From Methylorubrum salsuginis (GTDB taxonomy: Bacteria; Pseudomonadota; Alphaproteobacteria; Rhizobiales; Beijerinckiaceae): a DNA stretch of 64,000 nt. The position numbers and the translations under genes are program-made. Within the stretch, counting starts at the first letter, position 1, and the number at the start of each line of letters is the position of its first letter. The stretch lies in contig NZ_FOSV01000017.1 of assembly GCF_900114375.1 (NCBI RefSeq), positions 1 to 64,000 of the forward strand, in the 5' to 3' direction. Below are positions 2,218-12,522 of the stretch, piece by piece. The notes beneath the pieces are model-generated. The model had not been told where the DNA came from. It made no database searches and saw nothing but the letters and a program-made list of their open reading frames with translations.

Positions 2218-3444
2218 TCAGGGTCGGACGGTCGTGAGGGCGTCGGCGATCGCCTGCATCACCGCCAGCGTCTCGGCCTCGTCCTGCTCGGCGCCGTGAT
2301 CGCTGAGCTTCACGATGACCGTGCGGGTCTCGCGGTTCACGTAGACGTATTGGCCGTAGACGCCGATCGCCGAGATATCGCCGTCATCCCCGCCGGGGGC
2401 GTGCCACCATTGGGCCGAGTAGTGCCAGCCGTCCACGGCGCGTCGGGCCGGGGTCGTGATCCGCTCGATCCAGCGGGCGGGCACGATGCGGGCGCCGCCC
2501 GCGCGGCCCTGATCCGCCACGAGGAGACCGAGGCGGGCGAAGTCCCGCGCCGTCGCATTGATGCAGCAGAACGCCTTCTCGACGCCGCCGGGGCGGTCGA
2601 GATTCCACGTCGCCTCGGCTTGCGCGCCCATCGGCTTCCAGATCCGCTCCGAGAGCAGCTCCGCCAACGGCTTGCCCTCGACGCGGGCCAGGATCAGGCC
2701 GAGCACCTCGGTGTCGATGCTGCGGTAGCGGCCCTCGCTGCCCGGCTTGAACGCCAGCCGCGCATGGTCGCGCACGAAGGCCGTGATGTCCCGCGTCAGG
2801 TACATGCCGGCCGTTCCGGTCAGCGGCTGCCGCGGATCGTAGTTCTCCGGCACGTCGAGCCCGCTCGTCATGTCGAGCAGGTTGCGCACCGTGATCTGTC
2901 CGAACACCGCCGGATTGCGCAGTTCGGGCAGGAGGTCGGCCACGCGGTCGGTCTCGGCGAGTTTGCCGCGGGCGATGGCCGAACCGACCAGCAGGGAGAC
3001 GATGGACTTGCCCACCGACCAGGACGGGAACGCCGTCGCCGGGCCGGTGCCGGGCCGGTGCCATTCGTGGACCAGGACATCGTCCTGCACCACGAGGAAG
3101 GCATTGGTGTGCGTCGCCGCCAGCATCGTGGCGAGCGGCACCGTCTGCCCCTTCCACGGGACCTGATCGAGGATCGGGCGGGGCTCGAACGGCAGGGGGC
3201 GGGCCCGCGCGGGCGCCGCCACTTTCCGGCTCGCGAACCAGCCGCCGACGGCCGAGGGCTCGATCACGGCCAAAGCCGCGAGGGTGACGGGATTGGGCAG
3301 CCCGATCACGGCGGTGGCGCCCCAGGCGCCGCCCGCGGCGAGCGCCGTACCGATCGCGGCGACCGCGATCCGACGGCGCGCGGGCGACTTGCGGGGCGAC
3401 GGCGCGCGGATCGACGGTTCGGGAAGCGTGGACGCCGCGGACAT
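2218..3444 (-). CDS. Serine beta-lactamase-family hydrolase (class C/NylB-like)
   Basis: About 408 residues from the ATG at 3444. An N-terminal basic stretch and one hydrophobic segment (near residues 25-45) suggest a membrane anchor or signal, placing the enzyme in the periplasm. The catalytic SxxK is seen in WSVGKS, and the paired Tyr in GRYRSIDTEVLGLIL, as in class C beta-lactamase-like and 6-aminohexanoate-dimer hydrolase-like proteins. Such proteins hydrolyse amides or esters, and few are true lactamases; the substrate cannot be predicted. The frame stays open to a GTG at 3585, but that start would abut the divergent SMR gene and add a low-complexity leader, so the ATG is preferred. No convincing ribosome binding site precedes either start. 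Confidence 0.8.
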   Translation of the reverse strand: MSAASTLPEPSIRAPSPRKSPARRRIAVAAIGTALAAGGAWGATAVIGLPNPVTLAALAVIEPSAVGGWFASRKVAAPARARPLPFEPRPILDQVPWKGQTVPLATMLAATHTNAFLVVQDDVLVHEWHRPGTGPATAFPSWSVGKSIVSLLVGSAIARGKLAETDRVADLLPELRNPAVFGQITVRNLLDMTSGLDVPENYDPRQPLTGTAGMYLTRDITAFVRDHARLAFKPGSEGRYRSIDTEVLGLILARVEGKPLAELLSERIWKPMGAQAEATWNLDRPGGVEKAFCCINATARDFARLGLLVADQGRAGGARIVPARWIERITTPARRAVDGWHYSAQWWHAPGGDDGDISAIGVYGQYVYVNRETRTVIVKLSDHGAEQDEAETLAVMQAIADALTTVRP

Positions 3445-3587
3445 GGCCACAGGGTGTCGCCCAGGAGGTTGAAGATTCCCTTGCCGCCCTGGGGGCGCGG
3501 CGTGGGGCAAACCCTCAAGACATTCCCGGTAGACAAGCGTCGGCCCGCCCGTCGGTCGGGACGCGCGCTCCGGCAAGGACGTCACTG

Positions 3588-3920
3588 GTGACCCTGCATC
3601 CGCTCATGATCCTCGGCTTCGCCATCTGCGCCGAGGTGACGGCCACACTGGCCCTCAAAGCCGCCGACGGCCTGACGCGGCCGGGCCCGACCGTGATCGT
3701 GATCCTCGGCTACGGCACCGCTCTCTGGCTCATGTCCAACAGCATGGACATGCTGCCGATCGGCGTCGTCTACGCGATCTGGGCGGGGGTCGGGATGGTC
3801 GGCGCGGCGCTCGGCGGCGCCTGGCTCTACGGAGAACCGATCAACACGACGCTGCTGGTCGGCATCGGGGTCGTCGCGCTGGGCGTAACGATCCTCGCGG
3901 TCGGGCAGGGCCAGCACTGA
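3588..3920 (+). CDS. SMR-family multidrug efflux protein
   Basis: 110 residues, the usual size for small multidrug resistance transporters, with four hydrophobic helices. The conserved membrane Glu is in the AEVTATLALK segment (about residue 16), and the WAGVG motif of helix 3 is present. Family members exchange protons for quaternary ammonium or guanidinium compounds as antiparallel dimers in the inner membrane. The start is GTG. It lies directly against the upstream end of the divergently transcribed hydrolase frame, so the two may share a control region. Only one SMR gene is present, so a homodimer is expected. Whether it exports drugs or guanidinium cannot be told from sequence. Confidence 0.88.
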   Translation: MTLHPLMILGFAICAEVTATLALKAADGLTRPGPTVIVILGYGTALWLMSNSMDMLPIGVVYAIWAGVGMVGAALGGAWLYGEPINTTLLVGIGVVALGVTILAVGQGQH

Positions 3921-4426
3921 AGCGGACCGAGATGGCTGTCGTGAGCGAAAGAGCTCCTGACCGGACGCAGCCACCAAAAGGGTAGCCGCCCTGCTCATGG
4001 CCGCGACACGCGAGGTCAGTGTTCAATCCGCCGACCTGCTCCGGTTGGAACGGATCGAGGTGCACCGCAACCGTCGGGGTCTTGCGAGCTGTGCGGTGAT
4101 GATCGCCTCGAACGTTCCGGCCGGGTTGATCGCGGCCCTGCCGTTCCGCGCGGCCACGACGATCTTACTGGTGCTTGGACTTCTCCGAATGCGCCTGATA
4201 GTTGAGCCGGGGGCCACCTGCCGGACTAACCCAGACTCATAAAAATAAAAATTCCGAACACCCAAGGCTATCAAAAGAATCTGGGCGCAAAGAAAAGATC
4301 GATCTGGAAACGGGTTCGATAAGGTGAGCCCATCGCACCCCGTTCGTCAAGCTTGATTGGCGTGCGGAAGACGGTAACCTGGGTCGTCAACAGCTTCGGT
4401 CACCGGACGATCGGCTTTTCTCACGC
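3921..4426. other. Intergenic stretch with an AT-rich patch, no supported gene
   Basis: About 500 bases between the SMR gene and the SWIM gene. Short open frames exist on both strands (for example 3997-4242 on + and 4023-4274 on -) but show no recognisable motif or ribosome binding site. Positions about 4236-4300 are strikingly AT-rich for this genome, with runs of A around 4240-4255. This is a plausible place for the promoter of the five-gene cassette, although no clear -35/-10 pair could be picked with confidence. Confidence 0.5.
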
Positions 4427-5800
4427 ATGACCTTGACGGCGGCCCAGATCCTCGACCTCGCGCCCGACGCGTCGAGCCGCAAGGCCGGCCAGGATCAGGC
4501 CAAGCCTGCCAAGTGGGGCGGGCTCGGCCGGGCCGGAACGGTGATCTGGGGCGAGATCAAGGGCAGCGGCGCGAGCCCCTACCGCACGGTGGCGGATCTG
4601 GCCGGGCCGGCCTCCAAATGCACCTGTCCGAGCCGGAAATTCCCCTGCAAGCACGCGCTCGGCCTGATGCTGGTCGATGCCGCCGCGCCGCTTGCCGAGG
4701 CCGAGCCGCCCGACTGGGTGGCGGCCTGGACCAAGGGCCGCGAGAGCCGCGCCGCGGCGGCGGAGACCCGCAGCGCCGAGCCGGCCAAGCCCGTGGACGA
4801 GAAGGCGCAGGCCAAGCGCCGGCAGGCGCGCGAGGACCGCGTCGCGGGTGCGCTGGACGACCTCGCGCTCTGGCTCGGCGACCTGATGCGCCGCGGGATC
4901 GCGAGCACGCGGGCCGAGCCCTACGCCTGCTGGGACCGCGTCGCCGGGCGCCTCGTGGACGGTCAGGCCCCCGGCCTCGCCCGAAGGGTGCGGGCCCTGC
5001 CCGGCCTCGCCGTGGGCGCCGCTGCCCCCGGCGCGCCCCGGCCGGAGGAGGCGATGGCCCTCGCCCTCGGCCGGATCGGTCTCCTGGTGCGGGCGGCGCG
5101 GCGCATCGACCGGCTCGCCCCCGAGCAGGCCGCCGCCGTGCGAGCCGCCATCGGCTACCCGGTCGGGGCCGAGGCGATGGCGGAGCAGCCGGATCGCGCC
5201 GAGGATTGGGCCGTGCTCGCCCACACGGTCGAGGAGGAGGACCGGCTCACCGCCCGCACGATCTGGCTCGCCGGGCGCGAGAGCGGGGCGCTGGCGCAGG
5301 TGATCGATTACGGCGCGGCCGGATCGCCCCTGCCGCCGGTCCCGGCCGCGGGGCAGGATTTCGCCGGATCGCTCGCCTTCCATCCCGGCGCGCCGCCGCT
5401 GCGCGCCGTGCTGCGGGAGGGCCGGGCGGCGCCGTCGCCCCCCGGCCCGCTGCCCGGAGGCACCCGCGTGGCGGAGGCGCTCGACGGCTATGCCGCGGCG
5501 CTGGCGCTCGCGCCCTGGCTCGAATCCTGGCCGCTGCGCCTTTCCGGCATCCGCTTCGGGCACCTGCCGGAACACGGCGCGGGCGCACCCGCCTTCGGTG
5601 TCGGCGACGCCACCGGCTGCCTCGCCCTGCGCGGCGATCCACGCCTGCCGGCCCTCGTCGCGGTGGCCGGCGGCGCACCCGTCGATCTGTTCGGCCTCTA
5701 CGATGGCTTCGGCCTCGCCCCCTTGGCGCTGGTCGCGGAGGGCCGTCTCTACGCGGTGCCGGCCCAGGACCCGCGGCCCGTGCTGATGCGGGCGGCCTGA
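4427..5800 (+). CDS. SWIM zinc-finger protein, first gene of a five-gene cassette
   Basis: 457 residues. A SWIM zinc-binding motif CxC-x6-CxH is visible at residues 65-76 (CTCPSRKFPCKH), flanked by the usual GSGASPYRTVAD strand before it and an ALGLML helix after it. SWIM domains bind DNA, RNA or protein; the remaining 380 residues (Ala/Arg-rich helices and a C-terminal region) have no recognised catalytic motif. The stop overlaps the next start by one base (TGATG at 5798-5802), indicating translational coupling with the DUF5691 gene. This gene type repeatedly precedes DUF5691, MoxR, DUF5682 and VWA genes in actinobacteria, myxobacteria and proteobacteria (recall, not searched). The function is unknown. 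Confidence 0.85.
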   Translation: MTLTAAQILDLAPDASSRKAGQDQAKPAKWGGLGRAGTVIWGEIKGSGASPYRTVADLAGPASKCTCPSRKFPCKHALGLMLVDAAAPLAEAEPPDWVAAWTKGRESRAAAAETRSAEPAKPVDEKAQAKRRQAREDRVAGALDDLALWLGDLMRRGIASTRAEPYACWDRVAGRLVDGQAPGLARRVRALPGLAVGAAAPGAPRPEEAMALALGRIGLLVRAARRIDRLAPEQAAAVRAAIGYPVGAEAMAEQPDRAEDWAVLAHTVEEEDRLTARTIWLAGRESGALAQVIDYGAAGSPLPPVPAAGQDFAGSLAFHPGAPPLRAVLREGRAAPSPPGPLPGGTRVAEALDGYAAALALAPWLESWPLRLSGIRFGHLPEHGAGAPAFGVGDATGCLALRGDPRLPALVAVAGGAPVDLFGLYDGFGLAPLALVAEGRLYAVPAQDPRPVLMRAA

Positions 5801-7374
5801 TGACGGAGCCGTCGGCCGGCCGGGGTTGGGACGCGGCACTCGCCGCCGCGCTGATCGGGGCCGAGCGCGCCCCGCCGCCATCCGGGAACGGTGCGCTCGC
5901 CGACCTCGATCCCGGCGGCGAGGCGGGCCCGCGGCTGCTGGCGCGGCTCGCCGCCCATGGGCTGCACCACCTCGCCGGAACGGGACGCGCGGCCGGAGCC
6001 CTGACCCCGCTGCCGCCGCGGATGGCACACGGCCCCGAATGCCCTCCGGCCGCGGCGACGCGGCTCGCCCTGCTGCTCGCCGCCGGCCCGTCGCGGTCCC
6101 GGCTGGCGGAATGGTGCGACCTTGCCGCCGCCTCCGGCGTGCGCGCCCCCGTGTGGCTGCTACCGGCGCTGGCGCCCCATCGGCCGGACATCGCCTCGGT
6201 CGAGACCATTGCCGGCGCGGAACTCGACTGGCTCGCCCAGGCCTGCGGCGGCACGGCCGGGACCGCGCCCGCGCCGGAGGATTGGCAGGAGGGGACGCCG
6301 CAGGAGCGCCGCGCCGCCTTCGTCGCCTTCCGCGCGCGCGATCCGGACGGGGCCCGCGCCGCCCTGGAGGCGGGCTTCAAGGCCGAGAAGGCGCAGATGC
6401 GCGAGACGCTGGTCTACGCTCTCGAAACGGGCCTGGGCCTCGCCGATGCCGACTTCCTGGAAACCTGCCTCGACGACCGCGCCGCGGGCGTGCGCAGCGC
6501 GGCCCAACGCCTGCTGCCGCACCTGCCCGGTTCGCTCTTCGCCTCGCGCATGGCGGTGCGGGCCAAGACCGCGCTGAGCGTCGAGAGCAAGCCGCGCAGG
6601 TCGGGCGAACCGGCGCTGACCCTCGCGGTGACGCTGCCCGAGGAATCGCCGACGCTCGCCCGCGACGGCGTAACCCCCAACGCCTACGAGCAGCGCGGCG
6701 GCGGGGCGCGGGCCGGGATGCTGCGCGAGATCCTCGCCGCCGCCCCGCTCTCGGCTTTCGCCGAGCACCCGCCGGCCGTGTGGATCGAGCTGGCACTGCG
6801 CTGCGACTTCTCGGAACCGGTCTTCGAGGGACTGTTCCGCACCATCGCCCGCGAGCGCGACCCGGATTGGCTGCGCGACACCGCCGCCGTCCTGGCGCAG
6901 GCCTATGCCGGCCGGATCGAGGGCGTGCGCCGCACGAAGCCGCTGCGGGATCTCTGGGCCCGCGCCGTCACCCTGCTGCCGCCGGCCGATTGGGACGCCA
7001 CCGTCCGCGAGGCGATCCGGGCGGGCGGGAACGACGTCGTCCTGGCCTTCCTCGGCACCGGCCCCGCCGCCCTGTCCGAGGGCGTGAGCGCGGCCGTGCT
7101 CGACTGGCTCGCCCAGGTGTCCCGCGGCTCGCCGTCCGACCGGCACCAACTCGCCAAATCCTGGCTGCTCGACCGGCTCGGCGAGCGGCTCGAACCGAGC
7201 GAGGACGCCGCGGCCGCCGCCGCCGCCATCCTGGCGCGCCTGCCGGAGGATGCCGGCGAACGCCGCCTCGGCGAGCAATTCCCCCGGCTCGTCGAGACGC
7301 TCGAGCTGCGCGCCGCGATGAGACGTGAGTTCTCGAGCATCGTCCTGGATATCGGATCCAAGACGATGCTCTAA
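5800..7374 (+). CDS. DUF5691-family protein, second gene of the cassette
   Basis: 524 residues, mostly predicted helical, with a HEAT-like feel (repeated Ala/Leu helices, for example around residues 190-260 and 330-480) but no catalytic motif. The start is the ATG that overlaps the SWIM gene stop. The frame is open far upstream inside the SWIM gene, but only as a shadow. The last residues (EFSSIVLDIGSKTML) are encoded by an interspersed palindrome: GAGCATCGTC at 7335-7344 pairs with GACGATGCTC at 7363-7372. The native C-terminus has therefore probably been replaced or extended by a repeat insertion. Neighbours suggest a scaffold or adaptor role with the MoxR-VWA pair. Family assignment is by recall and context. 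Confidence 0.75.
   Translation: MTEPSAGRGWDAALAAALIGAERAPPPSGNGALADLDPGGEAGPRLLARLAAHGLHHLAGTGRAAGALTPLPPRMAHGPECPPAAATRLALLLAAGPSRSRLAEWCDLAAASGVRAPVWLLPALAPHRPDIASVETIAGAELDWLAQACGGTAGTAPAPEDWQEGTPQERRAAFVAFRARDPDGARAALEAGFKAEKAQMRETLVYALETGLGLADADFLETCLDDRAAGVRSAAQRLLPHLPGSLFASRMAVRAKTALSVESKPRRSGEPALTLAVTLPEESPTLARDGVTPNAYEQRGGGARAGMLREILAAAPLSAFAEHPPAVWIELALRCDFSEPVFEGLFRTIARERDPDWLRDTAAVLAQAYAGRIEGVRRTKPLRDLWARAVTLLPPADWDATVREAIRAGGNDVVLAFLGTGPAALSEGVSAAVLDWLAQVSRGSPSDRHQLAKSWLLDRLGERLEPSEDAAAAAAAILARLPEDAGERRLGEQFPRLVETLELRAAMRREFSSIVLDIGSKTML
7335..7372. repeat. Palindromic arm pair (interspersed repeat) overlapping a gene end
   Basis: GAGCATCGTC at 7335-7344 is the exact reverse complement of GACGATGCTC at 7363-7372, giving a 10-bp stem with an 18-base loop. 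The 3' arm carries the last codons before the stop of the DUF5691 gene. It is followed within nine bases by the second palindrome at 7381-7434, so the two form one composite REP-like unit. Confidence 0.75.
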
Positions 7375-7380
7375 GTTTCT

Positions 7381-7434
7381 GTGCCGCATCGTCTTTTTCC
7401 GAAAGCCGGTTCCCACCTTTCGGGAGGATGCTCT
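7381..7434. repeat. REP-like palindromic repeat, copy 1
   Basis: A 54-base unit beginning GTGCCGCATCGTC and ending GGATGCTCT. CCGAAAG (7400-7406) pairs with CTTTCGG (7417-7423), and GCATC pairs with GATGC near the ends, giving a hairpin. A second copy of the same length is at 40297-40350, with about 43 of 54 positions identical by eye. It lies in the gap between the DUF5691 and MoxR genes. Confidence 0.8.
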
Positions 7435-7483
7435 TGCGGCGCGAATTCGCCTGACCCTCCACCGCACGGGAGATCACCCAAGG

Positions 7484-8575
7484 ATGACGACGAACAAGGG
7501 AGCGCAGCTGCGCCGGGCCGCGGAGGATGCCTTCGCCGAGGAGATCGAGGCCCTGCACGCCGCCGACGACCGGCCGCGCCCGCCGAACTGGCAGCTCTCG
7601 CCGCAGGCCGTCGTCACCTATCTCCTGGGCGGGCGCCTCGCCTCGGGCTTCGAGGTCACCCCCAAATACATCGGCGAGCGGCGGCTGATGGAGATCGCGG
7701 TCGCCACGCTGGCCACCGACCGGGCGCTGCTGCTGCTCGGCGTGCCCGGCACCGCCAAGAGCTGGGTCAGCGAGCATCTGGCGGCGGCCATCTGCGGCAC
7801 CTCGCGCCTGATCGTGCAGGGCACCGCCGGCACGAGCGAGGAGGCGATCCGCTACGGCTGGAACTACGCGCTGCTCCTCGCCAAGGGCCCGAGCCGGGAG
7901 GCGGTGGTCGGCTCGCCGATCCTGCGGGCGATGAGCGAGGGCCGCATCGCCCGCGTCGAGGAATTGACCCGCATCCCCTCCGAGACGCAAGACAGCTTCA
8001 TCACCATCCTCTCGGAAAAGACCCTGCCGATCCCCGAGCTGAACGAGGAGGTGCCGGCCCGGAAGGGCTTCAACCTGATCGCCACGGCCAACAACCGGGA
8101 CCGCGGCGTCAACGAGCTGTCGAGCGCGCTCAAGCGGCGCTTCAACACCGTGGTGCTGCCTCCGCCGGCCACCATCGAGGCCGAGATCGCCATCGTCGAG
8201 AGCCGGGTCGCCGCACTGGGCCGCGCCTTCGAGATCCCGGCCGAGCCGCCGGGGGCCGACCAGATCCGCCGCGTCGTCACGATCTTTCGCGAATTGCGCG
8301 AGGGCGTGACGGTCGATGGGAAGAGCAAGGTCAAGCAGCCTTCGGGCACGCTCTCGACCGCGGAGGCGATCAGCGTCGTCGGCAGCGGGCTGGCGCTCGC
8401 GGCGCATTTCGGCGACGGCCGGCTCTCGGCCCACGATCTGGTCTCGGGGATCAGCGGCGCCGTGGTGAAGGACCCGGTGCAGGACGCCATCGTCTGGCGC
8501 GAATATCTCGAGACGGTGGTGAAGGAGCGCGACGGCTGGAAGGACCTTTATCGGGCCGCCCGCGAGAGGGCGTGA
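7484..8575 (+). CDS. MoxR-type AAA+ ATPase, third gene of the cassette
   Basis: 363 residues from the ATG at 7484, with GGGAG about 12 bases upstream. Walker A is GVPGTAKS (about residues 86-93). A Walker B-like acidic pair lies in GRIARVEELTRIPSE, and a sensor-1 region in FNLIATANNRDRGVNELSSALKRRF with the arginine finger. MoxR ATPases act as oligomeric chaperones, often inserting metals or cofactors or activating complexes with a VWA partner; the VWA gene two places downstream fits that pairing. An upstream in-frame start at 7325 would run through the repeat and the DUF5691 3' end, so it was rejected. The next gene starts six bases after the stop. Confidence 0.9.
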   Translation: MTTNKGAQLRRAAEDAFAEEIEALHAADDRPRPPNWQLSPQAVVTYLLGGRLASGFEVTPKYIGERRLMEIAVATLATDRALLLLGVPGTAKSWVSEHLAAAICGTSRLIVQGTAGTSEEAIRYGWNYALLLAKGPSREAVVGSPILRAMSEGRIARVEELTRIPSETQDSFITILSEKTLPIPELNEEVPARKGFNLIATANNRDRGVNELSSALKRRFNTVVLPPPATIEAEIAIVESRVAALGRAFEIPAEPPGADQIRRVVTIFRELREGVTVDGKSKVKQPSGTLSTAEAISVVGSGLALAAHFGDGRLSAHDLVSGISGAVVKDPVQDAIVWREYLETVVKERDGWKDLYRAARERA

Positions 8576-8580
8576 GCCCG

Positions 8581-10893
8581 ATGCCCGACATCCGCCTGTT
8601 CGGCATCCGCCATCACGGCCCCGGCTCGGCCCGCTCGCTGCGGGCCGCCCTCGACGCCTTCGCGCCGGACTGCCTGCTGATCGAGGGCCCGCCGGAGGCC
8701 GAGGCGCTGATCCCGCTCGTCGCGCACGAGGCCATGGCGCCCCCCGTCGCGCTCCTCGTCTACCGGCCGGAGCAGCCGCGCGACTGCGCCTTCTTCCCGT
8801 TCGCGGCCTTCTCGCCGGAATGGGTGGCGATGCGCCATGGGCTGGCCGCGGGCGTCACCGTGCGCTTCATCGACCTGCCGCAGGCGATCCAGTTGGCGGA
8901 AGTCCCGCCCCCGGCGGAGGCGGCCCCGGAAGGTCCCCTCGACGCCGTGCCGGAGGCCATGGCCGAGGAGGCGACCGCCGGGGCGCCCCATGAGGCGCTC
9001 CCCGAGGCACGCCACGCCGCGATCCGGCGCGATCCCCTCGGTGAGTTGGCTGAGGTGGCGGGTTATCCCGACGGCGAGCGCTGGTGGGACGCCCTGATCG
9101 AGAGCCGCGCGGGCGAGGATGGCGACGTGTTCGCCGCGATCCACGAGGCGATGGCCGCTTTGCGCGAGGGCGCCGGGCCGGACCCCGACGAGCCGGAGCG
9201 CGAGGAGGCCCGCGAAGCCCATATGCGCGGCGCCATCCGCAAGGCCGCCAAGGAGGGGTTCGAGCGCCTCGCGGTCGTCTGCGGCGCGTGGCACGTGCCG
9301 GCGCTGGCCCGGCACGATGCGCGCGGGCAATCCTCCGTGGATGCCGCGACCCTCAAGAATCTGCCGAAAACCAAGGTCGCCTGCGCCTGGGCGCCCTGGT
9401 CCTACGAGCGGCTCGCCACGGCGAGCGGCTACCGTGCGGGCGTGCTCTCGCCCGAATGGTACGACACCCTGTGGCACCACGAGGACAAGGTCGCCGCCCG
9501 CTGGCTCGCCCGCGCGGCGGCGCTGCTGCGCGCGGCCGACCTCGACGCGTCGCCGGCCTCGGTGATCGAGGCGGCCCGCCTCGCCGAGGCGCTGGCGGCG
9601 TTCCGCGGACGCGCGCGCCCGTCGCTCGAAGACCTCGACGAGGCGGCGCAGGCGACGCTGTGCTTCGCCGACGCCGCGCCGATGGCGCTGATCCGGCGCA
9701 AGCTCGTCATCGGCGAGCGCCTCGGCGCGACCCCGCCGGACAGCCCCTCGACGCCGGTCGAGGCCGACTTCGCCGCCCAGTGCAAGCGCCTGCGGCTCAA
9801 GCCCGGCGCGGATGCTGGCGAGATGACCCTCGATCTGCGCAAGGAGAACGACCTCGCCCGCAGCCACCTTCTCAACCGGCTGGCGCTCATCGGCATTCCC
9901 TGGGGCACGCGGCGGGAGGCGCGAGGGCGCGGCACCTTCAAGGAGGCGTGGTTTCTGAGCTGGCAGCCCGATTGGGTGGTCGAGCTCGTGGCCGCGTCGG
10001 CGCTGGGCGGCACGGTGGCCGAGGCCGCCGCGGGCCGGGTGCGGGAGCGGGCGCGGGCGGCGACCCGCGTCGCCGAACTCTCGGGCCTGATCGGCACGCT
10101 GCTGGATGCCGACCTCGCCGACGCCACCGCGGACGTGATCCGGGCGCTCGACGCCCGCGCCGCCGTCTCGGCCGACGTGTTCGATCTGATGGACGCCCTG
10201 CCGCCGCTGGCCGAACTCGCCCGCTACGGTTCGGTGCGCTCGACTGAGACCGCCCCCGTCCTCGCGGTCGTGCGCGGGCTGGTGCCCCGCGTGGCCGCCG
10301 GCCTCACGGCCAACTGCCAGAGCCTCGACGACGATGCGGCCGCAGCGGCCAGGACGCGCATCGTCGCCGTCTCGGGCGCCGTCGCGCTGCTGGAGGAACC
10401 CGAACTGAAACAGGCGTGGCAGGAGGCTTTGCGCGGATTGGCCGACCAGGAGCACGTCCATGGCCGCGTCGTCGGCCGCGCCGTGCGCCTGCTGTTCGAC
10501 GACGGCGCTATCGCGGCGGAGGAGGCCGGCGACCGCCTGCGCCGCGCGCTGTCGCGGGCCGCCGGGGCGCTCGCCGCCGCGGCCTGGATCGAGGGCTTTC
10601 TGGAGGAGGGCGGCCCGGCGCTGATCCACGGCCAGGGCTTGCTCGGGATCGTCGATGACTGGCTCGGCGGCCTCGACGACGCCCTGTTCACCGAGTTGCT
10701 GCCGCTGGTGCGGCGCACCTTCGCCAGCATGGAGAAGGCCGAGCGCCGGGCGATCGGCGAGGCTTTGGCCCGCCCTGGCGGCGCCGGCCTCGCCGCGGAC
10801 GAGCCCGGCCGAACCTTCGACGCGGAGCGTGCGGCCAAGGTGCTGCCGATCCTGCGCCTGCTCCTCTCCCCGGACGCCGGAGACGCCGCATGA
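8581..10893 (+). CDS. DUF5682-family protein, fourth gene of the cassette
   Basis: 770 residues. It opens with LFGIRHHGPGSARSLR and an LIEGPPEAE motif about 40 residues in. A later ERLAVVCGAWHVPALARHD segment (about residues 220-240) recalls the TraB/EreA-like fold, in which conserved His and Glu residues form an active site. This makes a hydrolase or metal-dependent activity possible but unproven. The C-terminal half is helical and poorly conserved. It starts six bases after the MoxR stop, and its TGA overlaps the VWA start (ATGA at 10890). DUF5682 proteins are found almost only beside MoxR and VWA genes (recall). No signal peptide is seen, so it is expected to be cytoplasmic. Confidence 0.8.
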   Translation: MPDIRLFGIRHHGPGSARSLRAALDAFAPDCLLIEGPPEAEALIPLVAHEAMAPPVALLVYRPEQPRDCAFFPFAAFSPEWVAMRHGLAAGVTVRFIDLPQAIQLAEVPPPAEAAPEGPLDAVPEAMAEEATAGAPHEALPEARHAAIRRDPLGELAEVAGYPDGERWWDALIESRAGEDGDVFAAIHEAMAALREGAGPDPDEPEREEAREAHMRGAIRKAAKEGFERLAVVCGAWHVPALARHDARGQSSVDAATLKNLPKTKVACAWAPWSYERLATASGYRAGVLSPEWYDTLWHHEDKVAARWLARAAALLRAADLDASPASVIEAARLAEALAAFRGRARPSLEDLDEAAQATLCFADAAPMALIRRKLVIGERLGATPPDSPSTPVEADFAAQCKRLRLKPGADAGEMTLDLRKENDLARSHLLNRLALIGIPWGTRREARGRGTFKEAWFLSWQPDWVVELVAASALGGTVAEAAAGRVRERARAATRVAELSGLIGTLLDADLADATADVIRALDARAAVSADVFDLMDALPPLAELARYGSVRSTETAPVLAVVRGLVPRVAAGLTANCQSLDDDAAAAARTRIVAVSGAVALLEEPELKQAWQEALRGLADQEHVHGRVVGRAVRLLFDDGAIAAEEAGDRLRRALSRAAGALAAAAWIEGFLEEGGPALIHGQGLLGIVDDWLGGLDDALFTELLPLVRRTFASMEKAERRAIGEALARPGGAGLAADEPGRTFDAERAAKVLPILRLLLSPDAGDAA

Positions 10894-12050
10894 GCGCCAT
10901 CACGGACGCCGAACGCCTGCGCCGCTGGCGCCTCGTGCTGGGCGGGGAGGCCGCCGACGGCACCGGCTGCGCCCTGTCGGAGCAGGACCGCCGCCTCGAC
11001 CGGGCGCTCGGCGCCCTCTACGATTCCGACCGCAAGGGGGGCCTCGGTGCCTCGGCGCCGTCCGTGCCGCGCTGGCTCGGCGACATCCGCGAATACTTCC
11101 CGGCCTCCGTGGTGCAGGTGATGCAGCGCGACGCCTTCGAGCGGCTCGACCTCAAGCGGATGCTGACCGAGCCGGAGATGCTGGAGGCGATCCAGCCCGA
11201 CGTATCGCTGGTCTCGACCCTGATCTCGATGCGGGCGCTGCTGGGCGGTCGCACCAAGGAGACCGCCCGGCTCGTCGTGCGCCGGGTGGTGGACGAATTG
11301 ATGCGCAAGCTCGAGGAGCCGCTCAAGCAGGCGGTCACCGGCGCCATCGACCGGGCCAGCATCAACCGCCGCCCGCGCCATGCCGAGATCGACTGGAACC
11401 GCACCATCCGGGCGAACCTGCGCCACTATCAGGCGGAATACCGGACCGTCATCCCCGAGACCCGGCTCGGCCACGGCCGCAGGAGCCGCGGCTCGCTCAA
11501 GGACGTGATCCTGTGCATCGACCAATCCGGCTCGATGGCGCGCTCGGTGGTCTATTCGAGCATCTTCGGGGCCGTGATGGCCTCGCTCCCTGCGGTCTCG
11601 ACGCGGCTCGTGGTGTTCGACACCGAGGTGGTGGACCTCTCCGACCAGCTCGACGATCCGGTCGAGGTGCTGTTCTCGGTCCAGCTCGGCGGCGGCACCG
11701 ACATCAACCGCGCGGTCGGCTATTGCGAGGCCCGCATCACCCGGCCCGAGGACACGGTGCTGGTGCTGATCTCCGACCTCTACGAGGGCGGCGTCGAGGC
11801 GGGCCTGCTCGCCCGGGCGCAACGCCTCGTCGCCTCGGGCGTGCAGGTTGTGGCGCTGCTGGCGCTTTCCGACGAGGGCGCCCCCTCCTACGACCGGGCG
11901 CTCGCCGCCCGCCTCGCGGCGCTGGGCGTGCCCGCCTTCGCCTGCACGCCGGACCTGTTTCCGGACCTGATGGCGGCCACGATCCGCAAGATGGACCTCA
12001 ACCAGTGGGCGGCGGCATCCGGGATCAGCGCCGTGGCGGCCGACGGCTGA
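10890..12050 (+). CDS. VWA-domain protein, fifth gene of the cassette
   Basis: 386 residues. An N-terminal helical region of about 200 residues precedes a von Willebrand A domain with a complete MIDAS: DQSGS (Asp 211, Ser 213, Ser 215), Thr about 270 in GGGTDINRA, and an Asp in ISDLYEGG. VWA partners of MoxR ATPases bind client proteins through the metal site. No signal peptide or membrane segment is visible, so the whole cassette is likely cytoplasmic. The ATG overlaps the stop of the DUF5682 gene. A 10-bp perfect inverted repeat (12061-12070 with 12090-12099) follows the stop and may end the operon. Confidence 0.9.
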   Translation: MSAITDAERLRRWRLVLGGEAADGTGCALSEQDRRLDRALGALYDSDRKGGLGASAPSVPRWLGDIREYFPASVVQVMQRDAFERLDLKRMLTEPEMLEAIQPDVSLVSTLISMRALLGGRTKETARLVVRRVVDELMRKLEEPLKQAVTGAIDRASINRRPRHAEIDWNRTIRANLRHYQAEYRTVIPETRLGHGRRSRGSLKDVILCIDQSGSMARSVVYSSIFGAVMASLPAVSTRLVVFDTEVVDLSDQLDDPVEVLFSVQLGGGTDINRAVGYCEARITRPEDTVLVLISDLYEGGVEAGLLARAQRLVASGVQVVALLALSDEGAPSYDRALAARLAALGVPAFACTPDLFPDLMAATIRKMDLNQWAAASGISAVAADG

Positions 12051-12111: not shown

Positions 12112-12154
12112 CTGAAGGATCGTCCGGGATTTCGGATCCGGGGCGACCCTTCAG
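12112..12154. terminator. Second hairpin, over the 3' end of the UPF0060 gene
   Basis: CTGAAGGATCGTCC (12112-12125) pairs with GGGGCGACCCTTCAG (12140-12154) over about 14 positions, with one mismatch and one G-T pair. It lies between convergent genes and covers the stop codon of the minus-strand UPF0060 gene, so it could end transcription from both sides. Confidence 0.45.
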
Positions 12155-12480
12155 CTCCCCCGCGGCGCGAACAGGATCACCGCCATTCCGACCAGGCAGA
12201 TCACGCCGCCGGCCAGATCGAACCGGTCGGGGCGGTGCCCCTCGACCAGCCACAGCCAGAGGATCGAGGCCGCGACGTAGACCCCGCCATAGGCCGCGTA
12301 GGCGCGGCCGGCGGCCTCGCTCTCGACGAGGGTGAGCAGGAACGCGAACAGGGCGAGCGAGGCGAGGCCGGGAAGAACCCACCAGACCGAGCGGCCGAGC
12401 CGCATCCAGGCCCAGAAGGCGAAGCAGCCGCCGATCTCGGCGAGTGCGGCGGCGGAAAAGGCGAGGAGCGTACGGGTCAT
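12151..12480 (-). CDS. UPF0060 (YnfA-type) membrane protein
   Basis: 109 residues with four predicted membrane helices. The signature [12 protein letters not shown] near the N-terminus and [16 protein letters not shown] in helix 3 mark the UPF0060/YnfA family, a relative of the drug/metabolite transporter (SMR-like) fold. Some members have been linked to efflux, but the substrate is unknown here. The ATG at 12480 was chosen because the family usually begins just before the first helix; a start 15 bases upstream (12495) is also in frame. It is convergent with the VWA gene. Its stop sits inside a hairpin. Confidence 0.85.
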
Positions 12481-12522
12481 CGCCCCGGCTTGCACCGAGG
12501 CGGAGGCGAGGCCAAGCCGGCG

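Follow-up and report, generated by a model that had tools for sequence, protein, structure and literature searches.

A stretch of 64,000 nucleotides of Methylorubrum salsuginis DNA (the window; positions 1 to 64,000 of contig NZ_FOSV01000017.1 in assembly GCF_900114375.1, which totals 5.32 Mb over 63 contigs) carries at 4427-12050 five genes for a SWIM zinc-finger protein, a DUF5691 protein, a MoxR-type AAA+ ATPase, a DUF5682 protein and a von Willebrand factor A (VWA) protein, in that order. The five genes are real, complete and placed correctly (Table 1). The initial annotation of this DNA had listed five same-strand genes with close junctions and one larger gap, a complete P loop in MoxR and a complete metal-ion-dependent adhesion site (MIDAS) in the VWA protein. 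The first statement is borne out by the coordinates and by Pfam matches above cut-off for all five proteins, and the second by the presence of the motif residues and their conservation in aligned relatives. The SWIM and DUF5691 genes overlap by 1 base (TGATG) and the DUF5682 and VWA genes by 4 bases (ATGA), with 5 bases between MoxR and DUF5682 and 109 between DUF5691 and MoxR. A simple scan finds no sigma-70 promoter. Three terminator-like hairpins, one at 4396-4414 and two where the VWA gene ends (12030-12049), are no excess over shuffled sequence (mean 2.2).

The 109-base gap and a repeat within it, placed at 7381-7434 by the initial annotation, are both there; the repeat is now recognised as a dispersed genomic element, outside the system, with 47 near-identical copies in the genome versus 0 for a reversed control pattern. 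At a relative's locus (L003) the DUF5691 and MoxR frames overlap without a gap, and the gap of the window is therefore probably an insertion.

The five genes as an evolutionary unit

The five-gene set is an evolutionary unit. A search with DUF5682, taking one genome per species, yielded 72 loci, counted after removal of the window's own genome (L001) and of E. coli (L002). All five genes are present at 54 of these, and the set occurs in five phyla: 25 complete loci are from Methylobacteriaceae, and the 29 others are from Diaphorobacter, Rhizobium (five), Phyllobacterium, Streptomyces or Actinacidiphila (16), Nocardioides (three), Catenulispora, an Actinomycetes metagenome-assembled genome (MAG) and an Anaerolinea MAG. 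The genes are co-linear at 38 of the 54. At the other 16, those of Streptomyces or Actinacidiphila, SWIM-DUF5691 and MoxR-DUF5682-VWA run divergently; the set therefore survives inversion. VWA is found at 58 of the 64 MoxR-bearing loci among the 72. Among the 18 incomplete loci, eight are cut at a contig end (L017, L024, L025, L038, L050, L053, L054 and L071), two belong to contigs that measure 3.5 and 5.0 kb (L032 and L049, the latter without MoxR in the 1.6 kb present), and at one fragmented Methylobacterium locus (L064) VWA is not seen.

Co-occurrence of the five families, the check that the initial annotation had proposed, is far above chance; in unselected genomes it was followed with DUF5682 and DUF5691. 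Of 240 Alphaproteobacteria, the window's own genome among them, 3 carry DUF5682, and the same 3 carry DUF5691 above cut-off; one extra DUF5691 match is below cut-off and in a frame with stops. Of 197 Actinomycetes, 44 have DUF5682 and 38 have DUF5691; every one of the 38 belongs to the 44, with 1.1 to 3.3 kb between the two genes (Fisher p 1e-34, a value that ignores relatedness). The best evidence that SWIM and DUF5691 may act together is a gene fusion: a Hymenobacter plasmid encodes both in a single 1009-residue protein, in which the whole-SWIM-protein profile matches residues 4-459 and Pfam DUF5691 matches residues 499-1000 (Pfam SWIM scores under its cut-off there, although the protein has the CxC...CxH motif).

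A recurrent core and the E. coli yeh locus

The MoxR-DUF5682-VWA core recurs in three further subtypes that lack DUF5691, some of them with a DUF4132 protein. At 14 loci picked among the lower-scoring Actinomycetes DUF5682 matches (96-347 bits), MoxR and VWA adjoin DUF5682 without exception, and there is no DUF5691 in the stretch read at any of them. They were sorted into three subtypes, B with 4 loci and C and D with 5 each, and the E. coli locus was assigned to C. In the representatives that were scanned, a DUF4132 protein is among the conserved genes of B and C (at one B locus and three C loci), and both of the subtype C neighbours examined have SWIM motifs (CxC...CxH).

The E. coli counterparts of MoxR, DUF5682 and VWA are YehL, YehM and YehP, with 40, 26 and 37% identity in the aligned parts (for YehL, 226 bits over 350 positions). 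Together with yehI, which encodes a DUF4132 protein, and yehQ, they fit the subtype C plan. YehQ has two SWIM motifs, beyond which it has no detectable similarity to the SWIM protein of the window. The E. coli locus differs from the cassette in having YehI nearby, and the E. coli control genome yields no DUF5691 match. The region yehF-yehI, which we take to be molR, adjoins yehL. A separate observation concerns an E. coli plasmid record (L160), in which a segment from yehI-yehLMPQ to mlrA lies between copies of IS26 on a plasmid with resistance genes.

A predicted TraB/ChaN-like domain in DUF5682

The N-terminal domain of DUF5682 is predicted to be TraB/ChaN-like and thus to belong to the TIKI superfamily. 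The AlphaFold2 model of the protein (mean predicted local distance difference test score, pLDDT, 83.4) is alpha/beta up to residue ~280 and helical over residues 420-770. Nineteen columns were inspected in an 88-row alignment that represents 86 genes and every subtype (the window and L062 genes are counted twice, and the L094 row, whose match starts late, is left out). H11, H12, E35, E80, D98, W169, R211, E212, M215, G235 and H238 are invariant, and G8 is present in 82 rows. The order of motifs, GxRH - E - RExxM - GxxH, is the TraB order; in 12 TraB proteins H41, E67, R228 and H252 (YbaP numbering) are invariant. The spacing is similar as well: 24 residues from H to E in DUF5682 versus 26 in TraB, and 27 from R to H versus 24.

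Profile comparison points the same way. With hhalign, DUF5682 scores 27.9-28.1 against TraB and 25.0-25.6 against ChaN, compared with 13.5-15.1 against four unrelated profiles, and both real scores lie above those of all 60 column shuffles (shuffled maxima of 20.8 for TraB and 18.5 for ChaN). In a global alignment, the first GxRH, E35, RExxM and the final GxxH coincide with the corresponding TraB motifs. When the DUF5682 model is compared with viral protein models, a TraB family protein ranks first (probability 1.00, E 7.3e-3, template modelling score 0.41 by target). In searches of the PDB, helical-repeat matches dominate for the whole model (Z up to 10.7, unspecific), with no ChaN or Ere structure among the matches listed. 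The N-terminal domain matches 7w5z_E (Z 9.6, 185 residues aligned, root-mean-square deviation 5.0 A), identified as far as its entry title, and the TraB profile finds no TraB chain among the PDB sequences. A single Ere sequence scores 16.7 with DUF5682, near control level, 13.9 with TraB and 18.1 with ChaN; since TraB itself scores 13.9, this comparison has no power.

The TIKI catalytic set is described as two His, two Glu and a conserved basic residue (PMC6254334). Of these, DUF5682 keeps the two His, the Arg and one Glu; the Glu two residues before the first His is missing, which places its motif nearer to the TraB than to the Ere type. The initial annotation had seen TraB/EreA-like features in this protein: the TraB half of that description is supported by motifs and profile, and by motif DUF5682 is closer to TraB/ChaN than to EreA. 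DUF5682 shares the order GxxH, E, R, GxxH with the TraB/GumN (E. coli YbaP) and ChaN-like members of the superfamily; unlike theirs, its domain is followed by a helical region and comes with a linked AAA+ chaperone.

The other proteins of the cassette

The alignment of DUF5682-linked MoxR proteins (82 rows, one gene counted twice) has an invariant N203 and R218-R219 pair in addition to the motifs of Table 1. The Walker B acidic pair, here E-E, is usually D-E in such ATPases. Window MoxR and the MoxR proteins of all subtypes group with YehL in a tree that places RavA and five MoxR-type proteins of the own genome apart (support 0.98). Direct comparison agrees: window MoxR matches RavA with 22 bits over 54 positions (E 0.57), one of the five own-genome proteins with 21 bits and the other four not at all. 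NCBIfam gives weak matches to the MadB, GvpN and LonB ATPases, far below their cut-offs. YehL is one of seven MoxR subfamilies (PMC3893208), to which window MoxR belongs by similarity and by tree, with a VWA partner nearby. The available part of that paper assigns the subfamily no partner enzyme.

In the VWA protein the MIDAS residues D211, S213, S215 and D296 are present in all 78 aligned rows, and T270 in 74. The AlphaFold2 model of DUF5691 (mean pLDDT 85.3) is mostly helical and solenoid-like from about residue 150; its HEAT/ARM-like fold matches (Z at most 9.2) indicate a type of fold and are no evidence of family. DUF5691 as a relative of DUF4132 (hhalign 24.6 versus a shuffled maximum of 20.3) was considered and dropped: the helical part of DUF5682 scores equally against DUF5691 (24.7), and the similarity is therefore likely that of helical repeats in general. 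Elsewhere, five tandem DUF5691 genes stand beside SWIM at 5839-14143 of L102 (G243:C71), in the Anaerolineae genome that also carries the DUF5682 locus L066 on a different contig stretch.

Table 1. Positions of the cassette genes, their motifs and associated features. Coordinates are those of the window, except in the last row, where they refer to the loci named.
Feature	Position	Strand	Evidence
SWIM zinc-finger protein, 457 aa	4427-5800	+	Pfam PF04434, 25.8 bits (cut-off 19.6)
SWIM zinc ligands C65, C67, C74, H76	4619-4654	+	53/53 rows (with 52 relatives)
DUF5691 protein, 524 aa	5800-7374	+	Pfam PF18944, 267.8 bits (cut-off 27)
Dispersed palindromic repeat, DUF5691/MoxR gap	7399-7423	+	47 genome matches at <=1 mismatch
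MoxR AAA+ ATPase, YehL type, 363 aa	7484-8575	+	Pfam AAA_5, 128.5 bits (cut-off 22)
P loop, MoxR residues 86-93	7739-7762	+	G86, G89, K92 in 82/82 rows
Walker B acidic pair E159-E160 of MoxR	7958-7963	+	82/82 rows
DUF5682 protein, 770 aa	8581-10893	+	Pfam PF18934, 862.8 bits (cut-off 26)
Predicted TraB/ChaN-like (TIKI superfamily) N-terminal domain, DUF5682 residues 1 to ~280 (border by eye)	8581-9420	+	motifs and hhalign
H11, GIRH motif, candidate active-site residue	8611-8613	+	88/88 rows
E35, candidate active-site residue	8683-8685	+	88/88 rows
R211, RExxM motif	9211-9213	+	88/88 rows
H238, GAWH motif, candidate active-site residue	9292-9294	+	88/88 rows
Helical C-terminal region, DUF5682 residues 420-770	9838-10890	+	AlphaFold2 secondary structure
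VWA protein, CoxE type, 386 aa	10890-12050	+	VWA_CoxE, 178.9 bits (cut-off 26.4)
MIDAS DxSxS (D211, S213, S215) of VWA; T270 and D296 complete it	11520-11534	+	conserved rows
B12-binding protein genes	L040:4798-5358, L063:4800-5225, L072:4652-5239, L073:4619-5161, L056:3949-4371, L033:1009-1605		

Distribution and neighbourhood

Within the genus the cassette is patchy: 46 of 99 genomes have DUF5682. Typing by DUF5682 score per position alone puts 37 of these in the window type (3 of them partial or in pieces, and one with a second type as well) and 8 in the second type only (322-341 bits), leaving 1 short piece with a stop. At 26 Methylobacteriaceae loci (of 32, the window included) no flanking gene family is common to more than five, a raw count that includes the general rearrangement of the genus; the initial remark that no substrate gene is linked fits these loci. 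In contrast, 14-15 Streptomycetaceae loci have flanking genes in common. DUF5682 matches 28 of 72,556 plasmid records (some of them chromosome-sized), 15 over at least 80% of the query; the plasmids include those of Rhizobium, Deinococcus, Methylosinus and Hymenobacter, and that of Deinococcus taeanensis carries the full set. Among phage records 1 of 50,697 matches, and none of 34 candidate DUF5682 stretches in viral contigs was confirmed.

In the window, the cassette is neighboured by a beta-lactamase-family protein (2221-3585), an SMR-type small multidrug transporter (3588-3917) and a YnfA-type protein (12154-12495). B12-binding proteins make up 6 of the 106 flank proteins and lie by the cassette at five loci of Streptomycetaceae and at that of Catenulispora; in the Streptomycetaceae, succinyl-CoA ligase genes are on the opposite side. 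On the Methylosinus OB3b plasmid (L159, 11160-12385) the VWA gene is split among three frames, with transposase genes close by. In Hymenobacter and Deinococcus a small gene is annotated between MoxR and DUF5682, but the idea that it is conserved was dropped: of 16 such regions that were compared, just three, all from Methylobacterium, match one another.

Proposed mechanism and alternatives

MoxR-VWA pairs are common in bacteria, and other MoxR proteins form ATPase rings. Tentatively, and as a possibility rather than a probability, we favour the view that MoxR and VWA are here a chaperone pair dedicated to DUF5682 as a TIKI-type hydrolase, with SWIM-DUF5691 as its target adaptor. The YehL-type MoxR would form an ATPase ring, which the VWA protein would couple, through its MIDAS face, to DUF5682, in which a helical stalk would bear the predicted TraB/ChaN-like catalytic domain; remodelling driven by ATP would then open, load or activate the enzyme. 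DUF5682 is proposed as the object of ATP turnover because it is the constant companion of the MoxR-VWA pair. SWIM and DUF5691 would make up a single adaptor, zinc finger and helical solenoid together, to bring in the target, and in sister systems (E. coli yehI-yehLMPQ included) a DUF4132 protein would stand in place of the missing DUF5691. The notion that SWIM and DUF5691 select a target goes back to the initial annotation: their togetherness and fusion fit an adaptor, and target selection itself is not proved. From these sequences we infer a physical complex of the cassette proteins, a hydrolase activity, its gating by ATP and an adaptor role; that the target is a protein or peptide in an intracellular stress response is a guess. 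For the remodelling step there is a model in NorQ-NorD, in which the MoxR ring twists and stretches the VWA linker, enabling metal insertion into the target (PMC13036017), and a general principle, by which a client peptide is captured by VWA and its conformation changed by the ATPase (PMC7159879).

Several observations weigh against this view. Seven loci with room for the set break it, six in Saprospiraceae (L036, L037, L043, L060, L062 and L070) and one in Anaerolineae (L066): DUF5682 is alone at L037, L043, L060 and L070, L036 has no VWA in the 10 kb downstream, L062 has its MoxR 3 kb away and L066 has MoxR only. DUF5691 is present somewhere in 9 of 10 genomes searched, 5 of the 6 with broken-up loci included. 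In subtype D, the one 488-residue neighbour examined has no SWIM motif and no Pfam match. The hhalign probability of DUF5682 is only 10% to TraB and 5% to ChaN (the accepted relatives TraB and ChaN score 30.7 against each other, with a probability of only 25%), and Foldseek against the PDB and viral models gives no match at E <=0.001. Without the first Glu of the Ere-type set, DUF5682 could be a non-catalytic TIKI fold, as has been reported for PMT (PMC6254334). Finally, 46 PADLOC defence families are matched in the cassette flanks compared with 16 in control regions, although the number of proteins behind these families is not shown.

A doubtful but serious alternative is that MoxR-VWA is a maturation chaperone, with DUF5682 as a scaffold and no enzyme, that inserts metal into an unlinked client or reshapes it in the manner of NorQD and CoxDE. 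The cassette resembles NorQ-NorD and CoxD-CoxE: MoxR with a VWA partner of the VWA_CoxE family is common to all, and known pairs of this kind mature metalloenzymes (PMC13036017, PMC7159879). The B12-binding proteins in the flanks, and the description of E. coli molR as a molybdate gene (PMC8533742), are consistent with it. The window cassette differs in having no linked reductase or dehydrogenase client that could be seen, and we know of no counterpart of DUF5682, SWIM or DUF5691 in either known system. That no client gene is fixed beside the cassette in Methylobacteriaceae speaks against maturation, as does the invariance across subtypes of putative active-site residues that a scaffold would not need; moeA and moeB, moreover, are without differential expression in the strains compared in the available part of PMC8533742. 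It is unlikely that the preferred view of a dedicated chaperone and hydrolase extends further, with MoxR-DUF5682-VWA at the heart of a widespread and so far unrecognised class of intracellular TIKI-family hydrolases (probably proteases) that are gated by ATP, in at least four subtypes with a different adaptor for each.

It is quite improbable that the cassette is an anti-phage or other conflict system with DUF5682 as effector, comparable to the ternary MoxR-vWA systems described by Kaur et al. 2020. Those systems likewise combine MoxR and VWA with a third conserved component, which in the available part of PMC7159879 is VMAP, iSTAND, FtsH or a beta-propeller protein and here is DUF5682; none of these families is found at or above Pfam cut-off on the five proteins, and a bpMoxR match of 21.6 bits is under its cut-off of 27. 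Patchy presence, variable flanks, plasmid copies and changing partners are what a conflict system would be expected to have, and the larger number of PADLOC families in the flanks belongs on the same side. The conflict role suggested by the initial annotation nevertheless receives no support from PADLOC, in which none of the five proteins has a match at E 0.1, and its proposed check for defence islands turned up no recurring defence family. The flank scan (E 1e-5) covered 106 proteins, up to 2 per side at 27 of the 72 loci. It found no PADLOC family in more than one protein among the best 25 of 46 families, ordered by members, many of those listed being PD-T4-6 models that are perhaps all one kinase. 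Its control, 89 proteins from 17 arbitrary regions with a maximum of two proteins per family, was not matched gene by gene, which makes this a weak test. The neighbourhood shared by Streptomycetaceae loci and the rarity of DUF5682 in phages are further points against a conflict role. Least probable of all is a DNA-damage or general stress module, in which the SWIM zinc finger would bind nucleic acid and the machine would remodel a repair complex. Deinococcus radiodurans drA0165-drA0166, relatives of DUF4132, are strongly induced when DdrO is depleted, and molR is reported to have been assigned to the LexA regulon (both PMC8533742), but this evidence concerns DUF4132 or WGR proteins and not the five-gene cassette. 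Simple patterns for LexA-type boxes are absent from 31 upstream regions (GTTC-N7-GTTC and GAAC-N4-GTTC) and from 18 divergent Streptomycetaceae regions (GAAC-N4-GTTC and CGAA-N5-7-TTCG); the first pair is absent from the whole window too, so this search has no measured power.

Significance

The initial annotation had held the set to be conserved but unstudied. The association is conserved, and no paper on DUF5682 or DUF5691 was found in the literature searched, which covers few subscription journals. In that literature two or more of yehM, yehP and yehQ are named together only in a genome announcement, SWIM, MoxR and VWA co-occur only on other topics, YehL and MoxR are named together in four papers and DUF4132 in three, and the YehL branch has no assigned function; MoxR classification papers in subscription journals may mention the gene set. 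The phrase SWIM zinc finger is absent among the matches listed of a wider search, and none of SWIM, TraB, YehL and YehP occurs in the available text of the conflict-system paper (PMC7159879).

Within the MoxR-VWA kind, what is new is the TIKI assignment predicted for DUF5682 and the plan of a core plus adaptors. If the wider proposal of a class of ATP-gated hydrolases were true, proteolysis would work by a chaperone that switches on a TIKI enzyme, with no substrate fed to a chamber as in Clp or Lon. The adaptor would be SWIM plus DUF5691 in the window cassette, and E. coli yehI-yehLMPQ, among others, would use DUF4132; a fourth subtype would have unnamed proteins. The YehL branch of MoxR, present in E. 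coli, gains in DUF5682 a conserved partner whose predicted enzyme fold has specific candidate active-site residues, together with a modular organisation of fixed core and changing neighbours. Several DUF families and E. coli yehLMPQ are thereby joined in one testable hypothesis, and three parts of the cassette have E. coli counterparts that are open to testing there.

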